Assembly: GCA_032622095.1 (NCBI GenBank)
Contig: CP136069.1
Coordinates: 155,671,043 to 155,735,042, forward strand
Length of the DNA stretch: 64,000 bases
Source of the DNA: Siphonodentalium dalli
Taxonomy: Eukaryota; Mollusca; Scaphopoda; Gadilida; Siphonodentaliidae
Direction of reading: 5' to 3'
The notes under the pieces were generated by a model that saw only the letters and a list, made by a program, of their open reading frames with translations, was not told the DNA's origin and did not search any database. This document shows, in pieces, positions 8,411 through 61,575 of this stretch (the stretch's first letter is position 1; every line of letters starts with the position of its first letter). The position numbers and the translations under genes are program-made.

Positions 8411-9086
8411 GATATTGTTGATATATTACAATAGTATATATAGTAGATAAAAAAAGAAGATAATTATACCAGGGTTGGGCGTAATTATGCATCTTTGTTT
8501 GCATCGATATATATTCGGCGAATCACAGATCACAGTAGCTTAATTTTCCAAATGCTAATATGATTCTAGATCAGCGTGACATTATAGCACTGCTCAAGAC
8601 TCATATTAGCAGTATCATTCTGTAATACCCTTTGGGAAATTACTGTGTTCGGTCAATGTCTTATAGCTTTGGGATACAAATTCATTCCCAATACTGACAG
8701 ATATGGCACTGTCTCGTTTAATCGTTGCAAATCGTAAATTCTCATTTGTTTCAGCAACACTGAATAATCTTTGTAATCTATCACCGACAAACGATTAAGA
8801 GAATTTTAACCCATTCTTTGCTGAATACTCATTGGCGGTAGTTCCCTTAGGAAATGCTCAGATAATAAGTTCAACAAAACAATATTGAATTTATTATTTG
8901 AACATTTCCCAGCAACAAAGTAGATCCTTTTGCACACACTTGTATTGTCTGTTGTCTGCTTACATTTCCTGAACATCCCTGAATAATAGACCATTCCACT
9001 GTATACTTCCACAACTGAACGGGTGAATCTAGTTAGTAAATACAGGGTTATAAGCGCCAAAATTTACATATTATCTCGATTTATAA
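8411..9086. other. No gene; weak hairpin
   Basis: A weak inverted repeat (CACAGTA..TTTCC at about 8529 and its complement near 8640) is present. Remaining frames are short and unremarkable. Confidence 0.4.
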
Positions 9087-9499
9087 GCACTACCCCAGCA
9101 ACATTATAATACTGGTACTCACATAGCGCTTATCTCCAGTACCAGCGGACCCCAATCGCTTCACAGTATTACCCCATAATGCCGACCAATATGCACCACC
9201 CCAGCAACATTATAATACTGGTGCTCATATAGCGCTTATCTCCAGTACCAGCAGACCACAATCGCTTCACAGTATTACCCCATAATGCCGACCAATATGC
9301 ACCACCCCAGCAACATTATAATACTGGTGCTCATATAGCGCTTATCTCCAGTACCAGCGTACCCCAATCGCTTCACAGTATTACCCCATAATGCCGACCA
9401 ATATGCACCACCCAGCAACATTATAATACTGCATGGTGCTCATATAGCGCTTATCTCCAGTACCGGCGGATCCTAAGCGCTTCACTTTATTACCCCAGT
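9087..9499. repeat. Tandem repeat, 106-bp unit, about 3.9 copies
   Basis: Units start GCACCACCCCAGCAACATTA at 9087, 9193, 9299 and 9405, an exact 106-bp period. Internal blocks GCGCTTATCTCCAGTACC and CGCTTCACAGTATTACCCC are nearly invariant. The last copy is diverged and truncated. Confidence 0.9.
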
Positions 9500-25270: not shown

Positions 25271-25447
25271 CGTGTTTTTTCAATGTCATAAATATCCTTG
25301 TCATAATATCAAGAAGTTGGTCTGAATGTTGTATAATGGAATGCACACATAAAAGTCAGCCCAACATGCAGCCATACAACATGGACCGCAACAAAATCAA
25401 TACCCGTTCTTTATATTTAGGCCTACACTCAACTCACAGATTATAAG

Positions 25448-26097
25448 AGCATTTATCGCCCATTTATAGAGCCCATTTATATAGCGCCCATTTATATATC
25501 GCCCATTTATAGCGCCTATTTATATAACGCCCATTTATAGCGCCCATGTATAGAGCCCATCTATATAGCGCCCATTTATATTGCCATTTATATAGCGCCC
25601 ATTTATAGCGCCCTTTTATATAGCGCCCATTTATAGCACCCATGTATAGCGCCCATTTATAGCGCCCTTGTATATAGCGCCCATTAATATCGCTCATTTA
25701 TATAGCGCCCATTTATAGCGCCCTTTTATATAGCGCCCATTTATAGCACCCATGTATAGCGCCCATTTATATAGCGCCCATTAATATCGCTCATTTATAT
25801 AGCGCCCATTTATAGCACCCATTAATAGCAACCATTTATATAGAGCCCATTTATAGCGCCCTTTTATATAGTGCCCATTTGTATAGCGTCCATTTATATC
25901 GCCCATTTATATAGCGCCCATTTATATAGCGCCCATTATATCGCCCATTTATAGCGCCCGTTTATAGCGTTCATATATAGCGCCCATTTATAGCGCCCAT
26001 TTATATAGCGCCCATTTATAACGCCCATTAGTAGCGCCCATTTATATAGCGCCCATTTATAGCGCCAATTTATAGCGCCCATTTATATAGCGCCCAT
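25448..26097. repeat. Minisatellite, TATAGCGCCCATTTA-type unit
   Basis: About 650 bp of short units, GCGCCCATTTATA with or without an extra TATA, giving alternating 13- and 17-base steps over roughly 40 units. Variants (GCACCC, GAGCCC, GCGCCCTTTTATA) are interspersed, indicating turnover by slippage and recombination. The minus-strand frame rich in W, Y and K is only the translated repeat. Confidence 0.95.
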
Positions 26098-26153
26098 TTT
26101 CAACGATATTCTGGTATCTCGTTGTAAGTTGCGTCCATGCAATTTGGAAATAA

Positions 26154-43000: not shown

Positions 43001-44224
43001 TATAATTAATATAACATCCCTCATCCAATAATCTCCAAATTGCATATCTAATTTCAATCCTAGTTACACGTCACGCCGCCCCTCATCATTTGCCAATTGT
43101 ACATCCTTTTTTTTGCTGCTGCTGCAACTGTTCAATTTCTTTAAAAATTATTGAAAAAATGGCCCTCCCGCCCGCCGACATTTACCTCTGATTTTTTTTT
43201 TATCATCGGTCCGCACCAAAATTGAGCACACGTCCCTATATAATATACCTATTTAAACCAGTATACCACGGTGGTGTACTATATCAACCGTTCATTTAAC
43301 CGTTTAGGTAGCATATTTCCACGTATACGTTATCACGACAAATCCCTGCTGATCTGTTATTAATGAACCAAACACTTAACACGTCAACACACTCTGGCCC
43401 GCCAATGCTACAGTGTATAAACGTAACGGGGCAAATATGCACATTATATTGGCAGCTAACGAGAGCATTCATCATCAGCAATCTGCTCACCCCTTTTAGC
43501 CGATACGATAGAAACTAAACGATTTGTTACTTCTAATTACCCGTACTTAATTACACTACTTGCGTGTTAATAAAGTACGACCCCATTACCACTAAAGGTG
43601 AAACATGGGATTTAGAACATTAATATTCACTCTTACATAGTTCCACATTCAAGGTTCGTCTTGTGTAATCGTATGTCAGTTGTAACGTTGTGAAACCGCA
43701 ACCGAACTGAATTATTCTATTGCTAAATAGTTCATGGCTGACCTGATGCATGCATCTTAGTTTTCGCTGACATCCGATGTGTACTGTGGTGTGATCTATA
43801 TAATGTCAATTTTACGTACTCTATAGTTCTTCATGCTGATGTTATTTGATGACGCGTTCGACAGCCACTCGAATATATTAAAAATGAGTCGGCAGAAGCT
43901 GACATCAGAACGGTCTCTGGACATGATCTACCATCTCATTTCTGTGAACAAAAAATGGAAACATAACGTTAAGTTACATAAAATATAATCCTGGAACTAA
44001 TATATGTTTTCAAAAGACGGCCAGACGAGGAAAATCAGTTGAAAACCCATCAGCTCCATCTAATTCCATACACCGTTTAATGGCATGCTATATTACAGAG
44101 TTATAATCTGTCCGACGTGTCCTAAATTCAATAAACATTCCAATTTTGGGAAACTTTAACACCGAGTCGGTTGGTACTCAAAACGTATTTCTCACCGCAA
44201 CAATGGTACTTGTCACCGAGTTGT
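43001..44224. other. No gene recognised
   Basis: No supported exon. The last bases (TTGT at 44221-44224) are a possible target duplication of the composite element that follows. Confidence 0.4.
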
Positions 44225-44674
44225 GGTTAGAAGGAACTAAATGTTTTCCATAGGCGACAGTGCTAACATTTATCCACATTGTTGATAAATAATTGAGATC
44301 CCATACCTTTCTTTGCAAAAATCAAAACCACTGGTCCTTAAGACAACTTAATGCATAATTGGATTTGTTTCCAGCCACGCCTTTTTCATTTAAAACTCGG
44401 CGCTTTTAATACTACCGTCAGATTCGCAGAAAATTTCACTACCAAAATATATCTGGTACAACAAATTTATAAATGCTTTACAGACAACCTGAATGGACAG
44501 ATTCATCAACCTCGCTTAAATGAATCAATAGACTATAAACTATATTTTATTTCACCGCAAATTTCTTACTCATAGTATGACCCAATCAGCAGACAGAGTG
44601 TATTTTATGCTGCTTTGAGATACCCTGTAAATTTAACAAGGGGCATAATCCACCCTATTTAGTTCCTTCTAACC
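44225..44674 (+). repeat. Left 450-bp direct repeat of the composite element
   Basis: Identical to 48703-49152 except at two sites. It is bounded by perfect 16-bp inverted termini. It contains a 74-codon frame (44351-44575, starting MHNWICFQPRLF) in which both differences between the copies are silent. The repeat does not have TG..CA ends and has no recognisable LTR polyadenylation layout. Confidence 0.9.
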
Positions 44675-45133
44675 TCAAGAAGACACAAAACCCTATTGTT
44701 TGTTTGATATCATGATATTAAAATGTACATATGAATATAACGTGTTGATTAAAAGTTGTTTCGTATATGTACTCCCCTCGCTTCAGATGTACTCGCATAT
44801 CCAAGCGGCACACCATATTCATTTCTCTGAAATTATAATTCCTTTGGTTTAGAGGGGTCAACATAATAAAGAGTCTCTAAAAGCGAATTGTTTATGTCAT
44901 ACATATTAATTTTAATTTTTTTTCAAATCAATCACACCTTATGATATCATCACCGTCCATCGCCATAACACAGAAGTTGACCAGTCTGTTTTCATGGAGT
45001 AAACGTTAACCCTGCCAATTTTGATGGAAATCTGCCGTAACGCCAACACTCTTCCTTGCAGAAAATGTTTATGGCTGAAGCTGAGTCACTGAAATTAAAA
45101 ATGAGAAATTTACATTTACCATGTAATATATTT

Positions 45134-45430
45134 TTATAACAGGCAGTTCTTTGAAGTCAATACCTTTTGTGTAATTTTGCAAACATTAACCCCACCCCAT
45201 AAGCAGATTTTGAGTCTGGTGGATACCCTGATGACTTCATCTGCACTGGCTGCTAGGACATGGCATGGGTTGAGGGAAATTAAACAATTTATATCATCAG
45301 CCCAGATATGTGTGTGGCACTCATGCACAATTAAAGGTGCGAGCAGCTGATAAGGCATGCTTTGAATGTAAACAACAGAACCAGAATCCAAGAACATGAT
45401 GACAGGTAGGACATTGACAGATTTAAAATA
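45134..45430 (-). other. Minus-strand ORF with a DSG motif inside the composite element
   Basis: An open minus frame of about 100 codons (after a TGA near 45440) reads NVLPVIMFLDSGSVVYI and later HECHTHIWADDINCL. The FLDSGS stretch resembles the active-site triad region of retroviral-type aspartic proteases, but no flap or second motif is recognised. A possible donor (AAAAG^GTATTG) lies near the end. It may equally be 5' regulatory DNA of the transposase gene. Confidence 0.2.
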
Positions 45431-45551
45431 AAAGTTCCTCCCCAGTCCAGGCAGTCATATTGTGAAAGTAAATTGCAGTGATCAGAGTGATTATTTTCAT
45501 AACAAATTCTGTGCTGATACTGGTTATGTGCTATTTTAAAATACTGCAAAC

Positions 45552-48196
45552 ATGGACATAAATGTTAAGAGTGGAAGTAAAAATATGAATACCAGATACA
45601 CATATGGTCCGAAAAATGGGCAGTTCAAATGTGGTCATTCAGATGGATGGAAACATGGAAATATTCCTAAAAATAAAGTTCGGAGAACAAGTTATGTTCG
45701 AAACAGTGTAAATAGTTTACCGAAAGTTAACCCTCTGCAAGCCACTTCAATTTCCAAATGCCGGACTGGGAAGGAACATGTAGAGTCGTCTGTTGTTACA
45801 AGATCTAAATGCTCTCAACCTCCATTGTCAAAAGGAAGATATTCTGCACCTGAAAAAGCAAGGTACATTTAGTTTTGATTATCAGACACCAACAATAGTA
45901 ATGCTAGTACGTTTTTAAAGAAGATATCAACCCTTAAACACCCAGAGTGTAAATAATGAAAAAAATTCAAAATCAGTTTCGAGCCCATATGCTGGTAATT
46001 TTTCATGCATATCAATGTAGTTGACACTTGAAATTAAGTATGATATGGTAGAAATAATTTTCCAACATCAAAATGTGAAAAATTTATTAAAAATTCTGAA
46101 GAAATGCATAATAATTACTAAAAAACATAGTTTTGCATGAAAGGGGTTAACGCATGAAATGCTCCTTGCTGAACTCCAGATTAAAATGCAATTTTAATGA
46201 ATTTAGTGTTTTGACTAACTAGTAGCATAAAAGCATAGTTTTAACCCAAGGAAAGACTACACAATTAACATAATTGAGGGGGGGGCGTGTAACACAATTC
46301 AAAATGTATATATGGACCAAATGAATAACAAGTATTTCAAGAAAACCAAAGGTGCAGAATATGTTCCCTTTTGATTTCAGGTTGACCACAGTAAAAAAGA
46401 AGGGTCCAGTTACAAAAAAGAACCCAACAGTGTGGGAAAGGGAGAGTGACTCATATCGTTCTATTCATATTCGACGCAATGCTGAGATGTGGAATTTTAC
46501 ATTTCGTGAACATAAGTCACAGCGACCAGATTGTGATGGATTTTTACACTGGGATTTGAGTGCCGAAGAGACTCGTGGGTTGTGTTCACGACAAAAAATG
46601 ATTTGTGATAAGTGTACATATAAATCTGCGATGTTCAATTTATACGGAGAAGTGATATCAGGAAATCGTGGTCGAAGAGCAGCACAACAGAACATTGGTT
46701 TGTGTATTGGCCTTAGTAAAACTCCAATAGCTGCTACCGCATTGCGTCGAATATGCCTCAGTTCAAATATGAAAGCTCCATCAACACGTGGCCTACAGAA
46801 AACATCAAATAAGGTCATGGCAGCCATAGTTGATAAAAATAAACTTGATCTTCAAACTCGACGGTCGCAGTTAGTGAAGAAACAGAGGCAAGATGGAAAG
46901 CCAAAACCTAGGGATATCGATATGCAGGCTGATGCGATTTATAATAACCCCCTATATAGTGGAGCGGGAAAAAACCCATTTCAACCAGCAACACAGGTGA
47001 TTTTCTCAGTTGCAGAAAATGTAACCCCAAACCACGATATAATTGGGCTGACCGTGCATAACAAACTGTGTTCAAAGGGCTGTCATTTGAAAACAAAGCC
47101 CTCACATAGGTGTTTCAAAGGTGAGTGCTTTGTAACACTGCCCTTTGAACATAGCATTGGTGATGAAAAAACTTGGGCAAAGGAGACTCTTCGTGATTTA
47201 AAGGAAAAAAGTGGTATTCAGGCTGATGTTTTAACAACTGACGGGGACGCTGCAACCGGTTTAGCAGCACAGGAGTTATTTGAAGAAGACGTAACCGATT
47301 CGCAACCCATGCATCAGCTGGATACCACTCATGTTTCCAGAAATCACAGAAAGTTCATCCGACACCACAAGATACTTCCCGATATCATAATTGGTTCAAC
47401 TGTTAAAAATCGAGATCAAACACAGGGGGAAATGGCAATGGATTTAGCAGACCGGTGTGGTGCCGAAATCAGAAAATCTTTGAAAAAATACCCGAGAAAC
47501 TTTCAACTAGTTAAGAGCAAACTTTCGTATGTGTGTGATGCTATAACACAGTGTTACCAGGGCAGGCACAGCCTATGTAAAAAACATTCTTTTGTTTGCA
47601 AGGGCAGGATTAAGGACAACTGGCTTATCAAAAGTCACTTGTTGCCAAAAGATTTCAAATTGAAGGAATCACATCAGACCACAGAAGTGATTCGCGAACT
47701 TGTACACCATCGCCTCAATCCTGCCATGCTTGATAAAACTTGTTCAAACACCAACACCCAAAAGGTGGAAAGTTTTAATCGAGCATTAACAACGGCAATC
47801 CCAAAGAATGTGACATTTTCAAGGAGTGTGTTTGGCCGGGCACATTCTATATGCCATTCTATAAATTGTGGATCATCAAACTCAATCAAGAGCTTGTGTG
47901 ATAATCTTGGATGTAAAATAGCAGATGGTTCGAAAGTTGAAAAATCGTTACATCAAGACCAAAAAGACACTGAATGCCGACGTGCGCACAAGAAAACAAA
48001 GAAGGCGAAACGTACTCGTGTAGAGAAAAGAAAAATGTTATATGACTTATACGAGCAGCACCAGGAGGTGATTAAGTACAAAAAAAACTCTAACATGCCA
48101 TCCACAAGTACCTCCAACATTGACGACAGAGTGGCTGTAGAACATTCCTATGGAAAATACTATAAGGGGAAAAGGGTTAATATAAAAAAAAAATAA
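45552..48196 (+). CDS. Mutator-like transposase, two exons
   Basis: Exon 1 (45552-45862) starts at ATG and ends AAGCAAG^GTACAT; exon 2 begins after TTGATTTCAG at 46381 and runs open to TAA at 48196. The join restores one frame (codon AG|G) and gives about 708 residues. Exon 1 is basic and low-complexity. Exon 2 has CDGFLHWDLSAEETRGLCSR and a CDKC zinc pair, then the core with TTDGDA (Asp about 391), LDTTHVSRNHRK (Asp about 418) and NTQKVESFNR (Glu about 567), a plausible DDE triad. The C-terminus is Lys-rich. The layout matches proteins I know from invertebrate genomes as Mutator-like transposase domain proteins. No frameshift or internal stop is seen, so it may be active. Intron 518 bp. Alternative: transcription starting at an ATG in exon 2 (46352) for a 614-residue form. 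Confidence 0.8.
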
Positions 48197-48230
48197 CCCG
48201 TCAGTTAATACCTGAAGTTATTATATGTTT

Positions 48231-48605
48231 TTATAAGATGCATGGGGGAATACATCCCAAGCAAGCTTCATTCAATTTGCATGTCATCCTCCCCTGATTT
48301 TCTTGGTGGCTCTCCTAACACAGATGGGCGGGGTTAATACATGCTCTCACTCCACAGAGGTGGCTCGCTTCCTGCGCACCTGGGCCCCTGAATGGTGGAA
48401 TCTGTTGGCGAGTTAGTCGATCCCTTATTACTAGAGCTAGTCTGTGAGTTTTCATTCGCCTGTACGTGCCATCTGGCCATTTTACCCATATCACCCCATA
48501 TCCCTCATCCTGGGTACCGTGCCATACAAAGCAGGTCCCAAAAGGGCCCCCGAACCGACTTTTTTTGTTCAGTTTTCTAACATAATTTCTATAAAAAGCA
48601 TCCAT
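48231..48605 (-). pseudogene. I-PpoI-like His-Me finger homing endonuclease, one in-frame stop
   Basis: From ATG at 48605 the frame reads GTCFVWHGTQDEGYGVI, RRMKTHRLALVI and EASHLCGVRACINPAHLC, then TAG, and continues in the same frame ESHQENQGRMTCKLNEACLG to TAA at 48231. This is the His-Cys box (His-Me finger) layout of I-PpoI-type enzymes: candidate catalytic His82 and Asn91, first zinc site Cys25/Cys84/Cys89/His94, and the second zinc site beyond the stop. In I-PpoI a tryptophan follows the HLC, so TGG to TAG is the simplest explanation. Everything else is intact. The start lies 98 bp from the right direct repeat, which may carry its promoter. It could be a fresh pseudogene or use readthrough. 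Confidence 0.7.
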
Positions 48606-48702
48606 CTTGATATTAGTGAAGAAAATTTGAGAGTATGCTTGACTGAAATTCTAAAATAGGGTCTGGAAAGGATAAGGTACATTTTGGTTTGAGTGTGCTT
48701 TA

Positions 48703-49152
48703 GGTTAGAAGGAACTAAATGTTTTCCATAGGCGACAGTGCTAACATTTATCCACATTGTTGATAAATAATTGAGATCCCATACCTTTCTTTGCAAAAAT
48801 CAAAACCACTGGTCCTTAAGACAACTTAATGCACAATTGGATTTGTTTCCAGCCACGCCTTTTTCATTTAAAACTCGGCGCTTTTAATACTACCGTCAGA
48901 TTCGCAGAAAATTTCACTACCAAAATATATCTGGTACAACAAATTTATAAATGCTTTACAGACAACCTGAATGGACAGATTCATCAACCTCGCTTAAATG
49001 AATCAATAGACTATAAACTATATTTTATTTCACCACAAATTTCTTACTCATAGTATGACCCAATCAGCAGACAGAGTGTATTTTATGCTGCTTTGAGATA
49101 CCCTGTAAATTTAACAAGGGGCATAATCCACCCTATTTAGTTCCTTCTAACC
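48703..49152 (+). repeat. Right 450-bp direct repeat of the composite element
   Basis: Direct repeat of 44225-44674 with two substitutions (CAT to CAC and CCG to CCA in the 74-codon frame at 48829-49053). It is followed by TTGTTGG, matching the TTGT before the left repeat. Confidence 0.9.
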
Positions 49153-49208
49153 TTGTTGGTACAGATTATTTTCAATCGACGTTTTTTCAAGAGACTGTTT
49201 CATGAGAA

Positions 49209-55639: not shown

Positions 55640-56252
55640 AAAGAATCAAGCTACTTCTAAATAATAGGACTAAATTGTCGGAGCTTAAATGCAAATTGGG
55701 ATTCATTAACTCAATTTTTGGTTGAAACACAAGAAAAAGAAAATGTCTTTGATATAATTGCACTAAGCGAAGTTTTAAAAATAAATAATGCAGCAGAATT
55801 ATCCCTATCCGGATATCAGAATATCGAATACAAAACAAGACCAGAGACCGATGACGGTAGAGGTGGAGTCGGGCTCTTTAATCGGGAAAATCTGTCATAT
55901 TGTGCAAGACCTGATCTTTCGGTATTTATTCCACATGTGATAGAAACGATTTTTGTTGAACTTAATCCAGGCAAACCAAATCGATGCATAATTGGCAGCA
56001 TATATAGACCAAACACTGCTCCGAGGGCAGATATTGATAAATTTATGAAAGAGATTGATGGCATTATGGGTAAACTAAATCAAACAAACTGTAAAGCATA
56101 TCTTATAGGTGACTTCAATATAGATCTTTTGAATTTCGACAATCATGAAAAAACGCGTACTTTCCTCGATAACGTTTTCACTCTCGGGTTCACTCCTAGC
56201 ATTACGAAACCAACCAGGATAACTGAACACTCTGGTACTTTAATTGACCCGG
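55640..56252 (+). pseudogene. LINE endonuclease domain (5' part of a split LINE)
   Basis: The frame reads GLNCRSLNANWDSL, IIALSEVLKI, DGRGGVGLF, IIGSIYRPNT, AYLIGDFNIDLLNF and ITKPTRITEHSGTLID, the order of an apurinic-type LINE endonuclease. Homology stops at LID (about 56252), before the expected DHI-type and SDH-type motifs. The rest of the protein resumes at about 59.42 kb on the same strand, so 56.25-59.4 kb is an insertion. The DNA before 55718 is in frame but has a stop, so the 5' end is decayed. Confidence 0.75.
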
Positions 56253-56533
56253 CGGCTATTGTTTCGGGTAGGTGTTGGGGCAGGTGTGATAATCCTCAAC
56301 ATCACAGAGCTGCCGACTATAGTTTTTATCATAATTGTTACTGGGAATTGGTGGCGATGGCTAATTTCGACGGCGATGAGCGGCCGGACGATGAGGATAA
56401 TTGGGGTTTTTGGAAAATTCAAAACTCGAGGAATACAGCGCGTAGAGGGCTCATTTTGGTGTCTAAAGAAAGGCCGATATGCGCCCTATCCACACATATT
56501 AACCCCGCCACTGAACGGACACCGGAAGTTGCA

Positions 56534-57001
56534 TTATGAACTCTCTTGAAATGTCTGATGGATGTTCGGGTGTGAGCAAGATAACACCAACTGCAGTTTT
56601 CGGTTTGTCGTTCTTGGACCAATTGTGTCGTGGTGATTCCATAGCTGGCGGCCATGGCTCCCTTCCACCCAGAACTCGGTGATGTAATCCGTGAACTTGG
56701 TGACGTTTTCTTCGAGACCTGTGTTGCTTGTCGCAGGGAAATCGTCCAGCGCTTCGAACCAGGCATCACCAACCATCTCGACAGTAACCATAGGGCGGGC
56801 TAGAGCTCTTCTTATGAGGGTCTTTTGGTCGTTGCCTTCAGTGTCTTCGTATAGCTGCTGTAGGTGGCATTTCTTAACATTCTTCAGCACTGCTTGGCCG
56901 TAATGGAATAGGCATCCTTTCATTGTAGCTGACGGAAATGTAGCTGCCAGGGCGTTTTGGGCAGCTGTCTCACGTTCCATCACAGAAGATCGTTCCGGCA
57001 A
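56534..57001 (-). pseudogene. MULE transposase relic
   Basis: The minus frame reads AAQNALAATFPSATMKGCLF then HYGQAVLKNVK, a RRALARPMVTVEMVGDAWFE block, TDYITEFWVEG and LWNHHDTIGPRTTN. This is the middle-to-late part of the MULE-type transposase found in animal FLYWCH proteins. After GPRTTN the expected glycine/tryptophan-rich segment is missing and only SHPNIHQTF resembles the family. It follows an AG at 57001, so it may be one exon of a gene whose first exon is at 57.24-57.56 kb. Truncated; not functional. Confidence 0.6.
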
Positions 57002-57239
57002 CAGCTAAATTTTCTAGATTTTCTCTGGTCGCGAATATCAGAATCTTTTCAGCATGGTTAAATTATAAACATTAATAGAGTTATTACTTGCTTAGTATTC
57101 TCTATTCTTTAATAATAATTATAATATATATAATATAACATTACACCAGTTTTACTTTAGTTATTACTTGCTTAGTTTTCTTTCTGAATACTAATATAAA
57201 GAGCGTTGCCAGATTAATGAGATTGCGAAATTAAATTTA

Positions 57240-57556
57240 CCCAGTACATACTTCCTATTTCTTCCTGGTATAGCGTTGTTACTGGCTTGTTACTTGTCTT
57301 AACAAGCTTTTTGAGGTCTGCAATCCAGGAATCTGCTGCTACTTGGTTGAAATCAAGTTCGTGGTTATGGTTGCCGCTGTTGGATATCACCATATCGTTC
57401 TCAGTGTTGGTGGTTGCACGGCAGTCTTTCTTGCAACATCGCCAATGAATTCGATCATTTCTCCTTGATTTAACGTGAATTTGTAGTCATCATATACCAG
57501 ATACTTTCCACCTCTAGTATTTGGAATATAATTTACGTTCACTTGTGTGCTTGCCA
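57240..57556 (-). pseudogene. FLYWCH zinc-finger exon, frameshifted
   Basis: Starts MASTQVNVNYIPNTRGGKYL, then VYDDYKFTLN. After a frameshift (about 57455) it reads SRRNDRIHWRCCKKDCRATT and SGNHNHELDFNQVAADSWIA. The Y-x-F..W-R-C..C-R..H-N-H series is a FLYWCH zinc finger. It ends at a plausible donor (TACTGG^GTAAAT). With the MULE relic to its left it forms the usual FLYWCH-plus-MULE order on the minus strand. Confidence 0.6.
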
Positions 57557-57701
57557 TCGTGTTTATGTCAGACCAGGGAATCTAACAGTATATATATTCA
57601 GTAGTGAACTCTACTTAAAACACTGATAATAATTCATAATACATCTTTACAAACAAATAATAAAACGTGTAAAATAAATAAACTTAATATGGCTCACGCT
57701 A

Positions 57702-59437
57702 TTAAACGTTATTCACCACCAACAGGTATGGACTGTGACAACACTGGACCGCAGGTGTTTTGATATGGACTATAATCTCCGCCGGCCAAGTCGTTAATCT
57801 CTGCCTGCCGGGTAGACAGGATATACCCATATTTATTTCGTTTAGCACTGTAGATGATAACGAATGTGTGATATTAGGTATGGTGGCAGATGAGTCGTCG
57901 ACGGTGGAAATACTGCAAAAGTAGTTATTTAAAGCTTCGGCCTTTTCAATATGTGATGAGTGTGAGCAGTTATTCCACACCAAAGATGGTATTTCTTTAT
58001 TTACGGATCTGTCAGACAGTTTATTGAAAGTTTTCCACCAGACGGAAGAAGGTGTATCGGGGTTATTCAAGATATATTGCATGTGTGAATTGTGGTCAGA
58101 TTTGGATTTTCGTATGAGAAAAATTACTTCGTTTCGTTTCTTTTTGTAAGCTGTCCATGAGTTATCGGTTTTGCGAGCTTTTGCTTTACTGAACAAGCGT
58201 TTTCGTTGTTTGATCTGTGATTTAATATCAGATGTCAGCCATGGAGGTTCATCCTTCCTACATCTGACTATTTTACTTGGGATGAATGTATTAATCTGGT
58301 CATGTAAGAATTTTGTTAGCATTTTAGTCATTTCGCCAACATTTGTGGAGGCAAAAATTTCTTCCCAATTTTGTTCTGCAATTGCCTTGTCTAGTTCTGC
58401 AAAGTCAGCTTTTTCGTAATTAAATACACGACGTGAAAAGTGCTTTGAATGGGTATGCTTTTCTGATATTAAAATATTTACATAAATCGGTACGTGGTAA
58501 CGAACATAATTTCCATGAAAGGGTTCAATGGTTCCGCTTTCGATGATGTTGCAACTTTTATTTACGACAATAATATCAATGAGTGTCTCAGAATACTCGG
58601 TAAAGTTGGTAGAGTCCGATATAATTTGTTTCAAAGTCATTTGGCTACAAATGGTTGATATATTGGTGTTAGATAGAGAAAATTGATTTTCGTTGAAGTC
58701 TCCGACTACTACGAGATTGTGGGGGCGAAGGTCACGTGCCAAGTCTAGTGTTGTCATAATTTCTGACCAACGATTGCAGGTTGGGGTCTATAAATCACAC
58801 CAATAAGGGTTCTGATATTTTTGTGACATAGCTCTATCCAAATGCATTCCACTTCCGAATGTTCTAGATCGAATCTCCGTCTATACGATATATTATTCCT
58901 TATATAAACTATAACTCCGCCATATGAGTCAGCTCTATCCCTCCGCTCAGGTTCACCAAAGCCTTGAATTAATAAGCGCTCATTTAGAATGCTCGTGTTT
59001 AGCCACGTCTCGGTAAAGCAACATATATCGAAGTTCATCATTTCGGTCCTAAGAATGTCGAGCTTTGGGACTAGGCTTTGGATATTCAAGTGGATAATTC
59101 TAAGCGATTGATATGGGCCGGGACCCGGGTGCGGATGGATGTCGCCCCCTAGTATGATCATATTATATGTCCAATTTGGAATTTTTTGTAACGTTTTCAA
59201 GGTAGGAAATCGCACCATTCCGGTTTTTATTGTCCACATGAGATGAGTTTTACGATCACATATTGTTGGATTATTGAGTATGAGGAAGACGATCATATAC
59301 GTAATAATGTTTTCTCTAGTAGCTCCTTTCAGGCGTAGTTGAAAACACGATATTAGAAGTTTTGACGATGTGAAATCACAGCGATGTTTTTTATGTGCTC
59401 GTTTTGCGCGGTCATGAAACATCTGTCTTGGAACCAT
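57702..59437 (-). pseudogene. LINE ORF2 N-terminal part (endonuclease and linker), minus strand
   Basis: The frame 59437-58755 contains LGGDIHPHPGPGPYQSLRII, HLNIQSLVPKLDIL, CFTETWLN and GVIYRP. A 1-nt shift just after YRP moves to 58757-57702, with LVVVGDFNENQ, SETLIDIIVVN, a W-L-T-S-D-I linker (PPWLTSDIKSQIKQRKRLF) and YILNNPDTPSSVWWKTFNKL. It reaches the start of the RT region (SSTVLNEINMGISCLP) and then degrades, so the reverse transcriptase is missing. Another family than the plus-strand LINE it interrupts. The long open frames suggest moderate age. Confidence 0.75.
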
Positions 59438-61575
59438 TTAGAATTTTTAGTGAAAGGAACATAAACAAATTCAAGGATACATTGTCAACATCAAGTTACG
59501 AAGACGTGTTAAACTGTGAATCAGCAAATGAAGCTTATGACCATTTTCTAGAAATATATATGTCTGCATACCATACTCCTTTCCCACTAAAATACCACAA
59601 ACCACCAAAGAAATATTTAAAGCACCAACCGTGGATGACAAAGGGACTTTTAAAATCTTCATTAGAGAAAAATAAATTATATATTCGTAAATTAAAATCT
59701 CCGACAAACGCTAACATGCATGCATACAAAGAGTACTATCACGTATATAAGAGAACAATACGCAACAGAAAAAAACAATATTATTGCGAGAAAATTAACA
59801 ACGCAAAGAATGACATGAAAGCGACGTTGACAATCTTAAAACAAGCCATGAATAAAAATTGTGACCCTCATAGTCCTCCAATTGCATTTATCGATGGTGA
59901 AATTAAGACAACACATACAAAGCAAATAGCGGAACGATTCAACGAATACTTCTCAAAAATTGGAAACTTGACTGGTAAAAATGTTGACGAAGTCAACACA
60001 CATTACCTGATTATTTGATCAATAGAGAATCGGATGAGTTAGAAATAATTGAAACAACAGAACAGGAAATAATACTCACATGCTACTCATTTAAAGTTAA
60101 AGCAAGTAAAGATGTACATGGTCTATCAAATCGATTGATGAAATCATCTATTTATGAAACAGCCAAAGCTCTTAAACACATATTCAATCAATCTTTCAAA
60201 GAAGGAGTTTTTTCGAAGAAAATGAAAATATCGAGAGTAATACCGATTTTCAAGGGTGGACAGAAAGAAAACTTTTCGAACTATCGACCCATCAGCATAT
60301 TACCATGTTTTTCAAAAATACTTGAAAAAATCATGCAAAAGCGAATTATAGATTTCTTTGATGAACATGCCCGTTTCTATAAACATCAATATGGATTTAG
60401 GAAGGGGCACTCCACCATCCATCCAGTAATGCATCTTTTAAATCATGTTGTTGAACAGAACGATAAAAAAACCAAAGACTCAACATTAGCAATATTTATT
60501 GACCTTTCAAAAGCATTCGACACAATAAGTCATGACATCCTACTAAATAAGATGGAACACTATGGTATTAGGGGGACTGCTAATCATTGGTTTAGAGACT
60601 ACCTATCAGAGAGGCGACAATGTACAGATTATGGTGGAAACATCTCCAGTCTATCCAAAGTTTCATGTGGTGTCCATCAAGGATCAATACTCGGACCAAC
60701 AATTTTTTTAATTTATGTCAATGATATGTCAGTATCCACATCTTTAAATTTATTATCATTCGCAGATGATACAGCCCTATATACATCAGACTGTGACAGA
60801 AGTTTTGTTGAAAATCGGGTAAACTTCGAACTAAAAAACATTCACAACTGGTGTTGTTGTAATAAGCTCTCCATAAATATAAATAAATGTAATTATATGG
60901 TAATTCATCCAGAAAATAATGATCAAAAATGGAAAGAGTTGAAATTATATATAAACACAGCTGAACTAAACAGAGTAGGGAATATATATGAAGAAACATC
61001 CTTGAAATTTTTGGGCATTAATATCGACGAAAATCTCACGTTTAAAAAGCATATTTCAACTGTATGCTCTAAGATGGCTCGAGCTATTTATTGTATCAAC
61101 AAAGATAAAAAAGTTCTTTCCGGGTGACGCACTGCGCACTCTATATTACGCACTTATCGACAGTAATGTGTGATACGGCATTCAGGAATGGGGTCATGTG
61201 GCGACCACAAACAAGATATATTTATTGCAAAAAAGGGCGATTAGAACAATAACCAATGCTAGATACAATAGTCCCACAGAACCCATTTTCAAAACAATGA
61301 ATATTCTGAAATTCAGTGACATTTATAGATATCAAACGTCAGTATTCATGCATGACTGGGCTTATAATAGACTGCCAGGAACCTTCAAAAACTCATTCGG
61401 AATTAAACTAGGAACCAACAGTAGACAGGCAGCTGCAGGAAACATTATACCAAAAGCAACACCAAGAACAACATTTTCAGAAAATCTCCCAGAACATTCT
61501 TTTTCGAATATTTGGAACTCAGTTAGTAAAAAACAAAAAACTAATAGGAATCGAGAAAACTATAAAAAAAACTAA
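59404..61575 (+). pseudogene. LINE reverse transcriptase (3' part of the split LINE)
   Basis: Resumes with FRIFSERNINKFKDTL, KHQPWMTKGLLKSS and an RNRKKQYYCEKIN linker. The RT proper follows (60015-61127): VIPIFKGGQKENFSNYRPIS, YGFRKGHST, FIDLSKAFDTISHDIL, HWFRDYLSERRQ, GVHQGSILGPTIF and the FADD box (60759-60770), ending with SLKFLGINIDENLTFKKHI. A stop near 60016 and a frameshift near 61125 divide it; the C-terminal piece 61198-61575 (LLQKRAIRTITNARYNSPT..) follows. All RT catalytic blocks are present, so it was a full-length copy before insertion and small lesions inactivated it. Confidence 0.85.

Follow-up and report, generated by a model that had tools for sequence, protein, structure and literature searches.

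A KolobokP DNA transposon in the scaphopod Siphonodentalium dalli, with junction tips as candidate endonuclease cut sites

We describe a DNA transposon of composite architecture in a 64,000-nucleotide stretch of the genome of the scaphopod Siphonodentalium dalli (contig CP136069.1, positions 155,671,043 to 155,735,042; this whole stretch is hereafter called the window). The element spans 4,928 bp at window positions 44225-49152, where two long terminal direct repeats (LTDRs) enclose an internal region (INT) in the plan LTDR-INT-LTDR. By comparison with the published description, we assign it with high confidence to KolobokP, a transposon type reported in 2022 by Kojima and Bao (Mob DNA 13:24, PMC9587614). 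As set out in the text of that paper, KolobokP elements have a pair of LTDRs, ~450 or ~660 bp long, with terminal inverted repeats (TIRs) of up to 18 bp and 5'-RR..YY-3' ends, and an INT that encodes a DDE transposase and, on the other strand, an I-PpoI-like nuclease. They form solo LTDRs and multimers, usually make 3-5-bp target duplications with no strong target preference, and lose 3-4 bp at one tip of INT-INT junctions. The window element and its relatives share this plan: paired ~450-bp LTDRs with 18-bp TIRs and RR..YY ends, a DDE transposase and a His-Me nuclease on opposite strands, solo LTDRs, multimers, a single tip kept at INT-INT and short duplications.

The first-pass annotation, made from the window alone, had suggested a distinct transposon type. 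The core architecture that it recognised is real, but the type is not an undescribed one, since KolobokP was published in 2022; our literature search on the architecture returned no description besides that paper. Its comparison of the LTR-like ends with insertion sequence (IS) composites, each end a unit with its own inverted repeats, agrees with the KolobokP plan, and solo units are present. According to PMC9587614, bacterial composite transposons and IS3-type circles likewise have mobile end units around an interior and one-spacer junctions. The present element differs in that its transposase is encoded in the interior and not in the end units.

Anatomy and coding capacity of the window element

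The left LTDR (44225-44674) and the right LTDR (48703-49152), both on the + strand, are each 450 bp long and differ only at 44356 and 44557, exactly the 2 mismatches in 450 sites counted previously. Both begin with GG and end with CC. The inverted repeats that bound each unit, earlier given as 16 bp, are perfect over 18 bp (44225-44242 with 44657-44674, and 48703-48720 with 49135-49152). Between the LTDRs lies the 4028-bp INT (44675-48702, +). Its left tip (44675-44678) reads TCAA in the window and TTAA in three other whole copies, and its right tip (48699-48702) is TTTA preceded by C; the right tip, and the left tip of those three copies, are candidate endonuclease cut sites. The TTGT noted earlier at the element's edge occurs on both sides, as a target-site duplication at 44221-44224 and 49153-49156.

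The predicted transposase gene lies on the + strand and has two exons, 45552-45862 and 46381-48196, joined across a GT/AG intron with its donor at 45863; the predicted product is 708 aa long. This gene model agrees with the spliced DDE transposase proposed at first. Exon 2 matches PF20700, ‘Mutator-like transposase’, at 3.7e-42, the domain for which the first-pass annotation had suggested a Pfam search. ‘Mutator-like’ thus stands as a Pfam name; as a class it does not, and the motifs instead fit Kolobok as characterised in PMC9587614. The KolobokP transposase is described there as having a DDE triad, a C/DxxH motif, a zinc finger before the last E and a second, CCHC zinc finger after the first D. 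Exon 2 carries D203, D306, DxxH at 333-336, E482 and C410-H415-C418-C425 (numbered in the frame starting at 46325), and these residues, including D333 and H336, are invariant across the transposases of the window's family, A, and of two further families, B and C, so that DDE, C/DxxH and the zinc finger before the last E are found in all three. C249, H261, C263 and C268, a possible counterpart of the published CCHC finger, are also invariant in the three families.

On the − strand, a His-Me finger endonuclease frame of the I-PpoI type occupies 48231-48650, with its first ATG at 48605. It is open for 111 codons from 48650; an in-frame stop at 48315-48317 then interrupts it, so that the positions equivalent to the conserved Glu and the catalytic Asn are not reached. 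The family assigned at first pass is right, but the gene is not intact in this copy. The two genes do converge; their stops are 118 bp apart in the window, and the 34 bp reported earlier fits only the longer, 139-codon frame. We compared 19 INT copies for this frame, namely the window, three other whole copies (L009, L010 and L011) and 15 uninterrupted units of an array on C3. The whole 139-codon frame is open in 15 of the 19, although 14 of these are units of the one array and not independent, and the stop at 111 codons recurs in a single C3 unit besides the window (2/19). In L010 the frame is reduced to a 114-codon stretch with the same end, while no matching endonuclease frame of more than 100 codons was seen in L011.

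P0001, the intact endonuclease of L009, matches the His-Cys box homing endonuclease I-PpoI (PDB 1a73, 1evw) by sequence at 3.3e-5, with a shared SHLC..C.NP.HLCWES..N core, and PF05551 at 1.7e-11; a profile of the three families reaches I-PpoI at 7.3e-7. The N-terminal half is unaligned by sequence, and the host differs, I-PpoI belonging to a group I intron and the present enzyme being encoded by a transposon. The window's shortened frame gave no PDB match up to an E-value of 1 and fell below the Pfam cut-off. With its own copy broken, the window element could use only enzyme from other copies. A single-sequence structure model of the endonuclease had a mean predicted local distance difference test (pLDDT) score of 35 and was not used.

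Copies, families and target-site duplications

Searching the genome with the window repeat gave at least 45 matches, and with the transposase at least 72; both counts are lower bounds, as 40 of 742 and 71 of 682 candidates, respectively, were scored. Among these are three further whole copies, on C7 (L009), C4 (L010) and C1 (L011), which align with the window element along its full length at 97.9-98.9% identity and have LTDRs of 434-450 bp. All four whole copies are flanked by exact 4-bp duplications, each different: TTGT in the window, TGCA in L009, TAAC in L010 and AGTA in L011. MuDR/Mutator elements make duplications of 8-11 bp (the figure given in the first-pass annotation), a length seen in none of the four.

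These copies also decide whether two miniature inverted-repeat transposable elements (MITEs) might have landed by chance around an unrelated gene pair, as would be suspected had no other locus shown that pair between two units. Solo 450-bp units with 4-bp duplications do occur, as such insertions would predict. However, four loci on four chromosomes carry the same pair in the same order within outer duplications, and LTDRs and endonuclease stand in the same relation in two other families. Because the whole pair recurs at three other loci, all with exact 4-bp duplications of their own, we reject the chance pairing as extremely improbable. An LTR (long terminal repeat) retroelement or remnant has next to no chance of being correct: it would explain the long direct repeats and the solo repeats and nothing else, the repeats begin GG, end CC and carry 18-bp TIRs, and the three frames scanned, the one search made, gave no reverse transcriptase match but PF20700, a sub-threshold bacterial family and endonuclease families.

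KolobokP accounts for the architecture, and we have weighed several points against it. The assignment was made by the published description alone, and the element is known here only as sequence. The outer duplications (TTGT, TGCA, TAAC and AGTA) are not the TTAA target duplications of canonical Kolobok elements. Among 13 solo, deleted or interrupted LTDR insertions, an exact duplication of 4-6 bp flanks 7 and is absent from 6, two of these six alignments stopping 3-4 bp short of the repeat end. This count omits members of the C3:153.39-153.48 Mb array, the L016 repeats in a tandem array, and two loci, L019 and L025. A C7 copy (L019/L049) has no exact duplication; its left repeat is retained, its interior is partly preserved and its right repeat is reduced to the final bases. 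Separately, on C3:21691398-21792359 a solo LTDR with an ATCA duplication lies inside larger tandem repeats (L016-L018, L022, L023, L035, L036), at spacings that include 3,285 and about 10,994 bp.

The transposases of families B and C are 58% and 50% identical to that of family A. Read from one fragment each, their LTDRs measure 451 bp (L052) and 452 bp (L053), again close to the ~450 bp of KolobokP, and an endonuclease frame lies on the opposite strand. Between families A, B and C, LTDR identity is 44-55%. Families B and C occur in tandem. Some of the spacings lie close to 4.48 and 4.50 kb, the values that (LTDR-INT)n would give; others are 6.2 and 6.7-8.0 kb.

In the mechanism that we propose, the predicted DDE transposase would use the outermost TIRs as its substrates and generate 4-bp duplications on insertion. 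As each LTDR has the same TIR pair, LTDRs could also move alone or recombine, which would yield multimers as well as solo LTDRs. Multimer formation is probably promoted by the I-PpoI-like endonuclease through double-strand breaks that it introduces into DNA of the element itself, as Kojima and Bao proposed (PMC9587614).

Arrays and module junctions

At C3:153392022-153485357 (L037-L047), family A forms a ~93-kb array that is mostly interior and ends at a 100-N assembly gap. It contains 8 LTDRs and 19 INT right ends, of which 14 lead into another INT and 5 into an LTDR. Two runs comprise seven INTs with no intervening LTDR, one of them including an interrupted unit, whereas examples in the main text of the KolobokP paper have up to four. 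Identity among the 15 uninterrupted INT units is 99.6-100%, and the same INT site is interrupted in two units about 20.2 kb apart by a 7,228-bp insertion, 99.9% identical between them; from this recurrence we conclude that blocks of the array were duplicated. Each of the 14 INT-INT junctions retains exactly one tip, TTTA in 13 and TTAA in one. Three LTDR doublets in the array have an 8-bp spacer (LTDR-TTAATTTA-LTDR), and three of four LTDR-INT joints read TTAAATTAA in place of the usual TTAA. Put simply, the INT-rich array presents a DNA transposon becoming a satellite-like repeat. In family B, two INT-INT joints were seen, each with one TATA, and no abutted LTDR-LTDR junction was found.

LTDR-LTDR abutments, a term absent from the main text of PMC9587614, were found at 18 sites by a pattern search of the genome: 14 on C1:195.95-196.03 Mb, three on C3 and one on C4. 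The pattern is palindromic, so that direct and inverted pairs are not told apart. All 14 C1 sites have a 4-bp spacer that reads TTTA on one strand, and the pair at C4:75628063 has a 14-bp spacer.

The C1 sites belong to an array of a nonautonomous relative at C1:195953783-196025794 (L076), of which 1.8 kb was read. This piece contains one site, in which two LTDRs in direct orientation are joined as LTDR-TTTA-LTDR, and reaches the edge of a second. The relative, family D, combines a 450-bp LTDR bearing family A's 18-bp TIR with an 891-bp interior, in which no similarity to the family A interior was detected at the cut-off used; the interior tips are TTAA-G and C-TTTA. Ten of the 13 intervals between C1 sites equal module sums (454, 1795, 3136 and 4477), and three (1784, 13844 and 31691) do not.

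The LTDRs of families A, B, C and D have diverged apart from a block, TTTCC(C)ATAGGC, that lies just inside the TIR in all four (44244-44255 and 48722-48733 in the window). This block is a candidate protein-binding site.

Junction tips and the proposed action of the endonuclease

The role of the homing endonuclease, and the place where it cuts, are left open by the text of the 2022 paper (PMC9587614). Among the sequences of this genome, the best cut-site candidates are the tips that separate INT from LTDR. All 8 family-typical inner LTDR/INT junctions read C-T[AT][AT]A (6/6 in A, B and C, 2/2 in D), where the left tip of family A is taken as TTAA from the three other whole copies, the window's TCAA being the exception. 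Right junctions were also found in 17 of 20 short stretches beside other transposase matches, and all 17, which are copies of the same families, fit C-TWWA (1 A-like, 7 B and 9 C); of the other three stretches, one starts inside an LTDR, one has no recognisable junction and one holds an INT-INT joint. By comparison, none of nine outer left ends, chosen from rows with a clean duplication, fits the pattern. In a wider count it is fitted by one of 36 outer ends (L032, left), three more having TWWA without the C; these are both ends of 17 duplication-table rows plus the left ends of L019 and L025, whose right sides are inner junctions. Compared by eye, the INT ends of A, B and C are dissimilar beyond the tips. 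As INT sequence there is not evidently shared among these families, the tip itself looks constrained.

I-PpoI cleavage leaves 4-nt TTAA 3' overhangs (PMC9587614), and its site is CTCTCTTAAGGTAGC (PMC6294500). The conserved tip pattern together with this overhang is why we propose the tips as the cut centre. We rejected the idea that the INT/LTDR junction closely reproduces the complete I-PpoI site: inner junctions match it in register at 7, 9, 8, 7, 9 and 9 of 15 positions, and the nine outer left ends at 6, 8, 6, 6, 6, 8, 7, 8 and 7. Since the whole 15-bp site hardly separates inner from outer, and only the C-TWWA tip does, it is the tip pattern and the analogy with I-PpoI that point to the tips as candidate cut sites.

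Several readings of these junctions would operate on top of the KolobokP plan. The transposase could suffice if an LTDR left with 4 flanking bp as an IS3-like circle, giving a one-tip INT-INT junction behind it and, on joining another LTDR, an LTDR-4bp-LTDR product. We judge this a serious contender, if somewhat short of probable. Excision footprints and a circle proposal are reported in PMC9587614, and the one-tip INT-INT and LTDR-LTDR junctions fit such circles equally well. However, conserved C-TWWA tips in diverged families, set against varying outer flanks, are left unexplained, and circles cannot show in an assembly.

Alternatively, and in our view possible but rather doubtful, the endonuclease may cut at the C-TWWA tips and leave 4-nt overhangs. 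Rejoining would then reassort INT-INT, LTDR-LTDR and INT-LTDR with one tip per junction, and the breaks would cause arrays to grow and LTDR-less junctions to be refilled. The difference between inner junctions and outer ends argues for such cutting, as does the by-eye dissimilarity of the INT ends beyond the tips. So do the single tips at INT-INT joints (13/14 TTTA and 1/14 TTAA in family A, TATA 2/2 in family B), the TTTA spacer at 14/14 C1 abutments and the TTAA overhang of I-PpoI. On the other hand, the whole I-PpoI site matches inner (7-9 of 15) little better than outer (6-8 of 15) ends, array copies are not independent events, and families A and D have both TIR and tips in common. Moreover, the window element has TCAA as its left tip, the spacer is 8 bp at three of the 18 LTDR-LTDR sites and 14 bp at one, no LTDR-LTDR junction was found for family B, and the tips might descend from an ancient target duplication (TATA/TATA in B).

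In its fullest form, which we consider unlikely, the tips would be the centre at which the element's homing endonuclease both recognises and cleaves its DNA, and the transposon would become a modular system that edits itself. This enzyme would cut INT/LTDR, INT-INT and LTDR-LTDR, reassort modules, build ~90 kb satellite-like arrays and re-install LTDRs at LTDR-less INT-INT junctions by homing. If true, this homing reading would explain how the composite plan survives despite end loss. With a candidate C-TWWA site, both one-tip junction types and open-frame copies in hand, the question of cleavage becomes a simple assay.

Elsewhere in the window, remnants of the LINE (long interspersed nuclear element) type at 55661-61127 include a reverse transcriptase (PF00078, 2.6e-37) together with frames resembling endonucleases, and within this stretch lies a sub-threshold fragment resembling a Mutator-like element (MULE; 56534-57004, −). 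Two tandem repeats were also seen, one at 25413-26125 with mostly 13- and 15-bp steps and one at 9070-9497 with units of about 106 bp.

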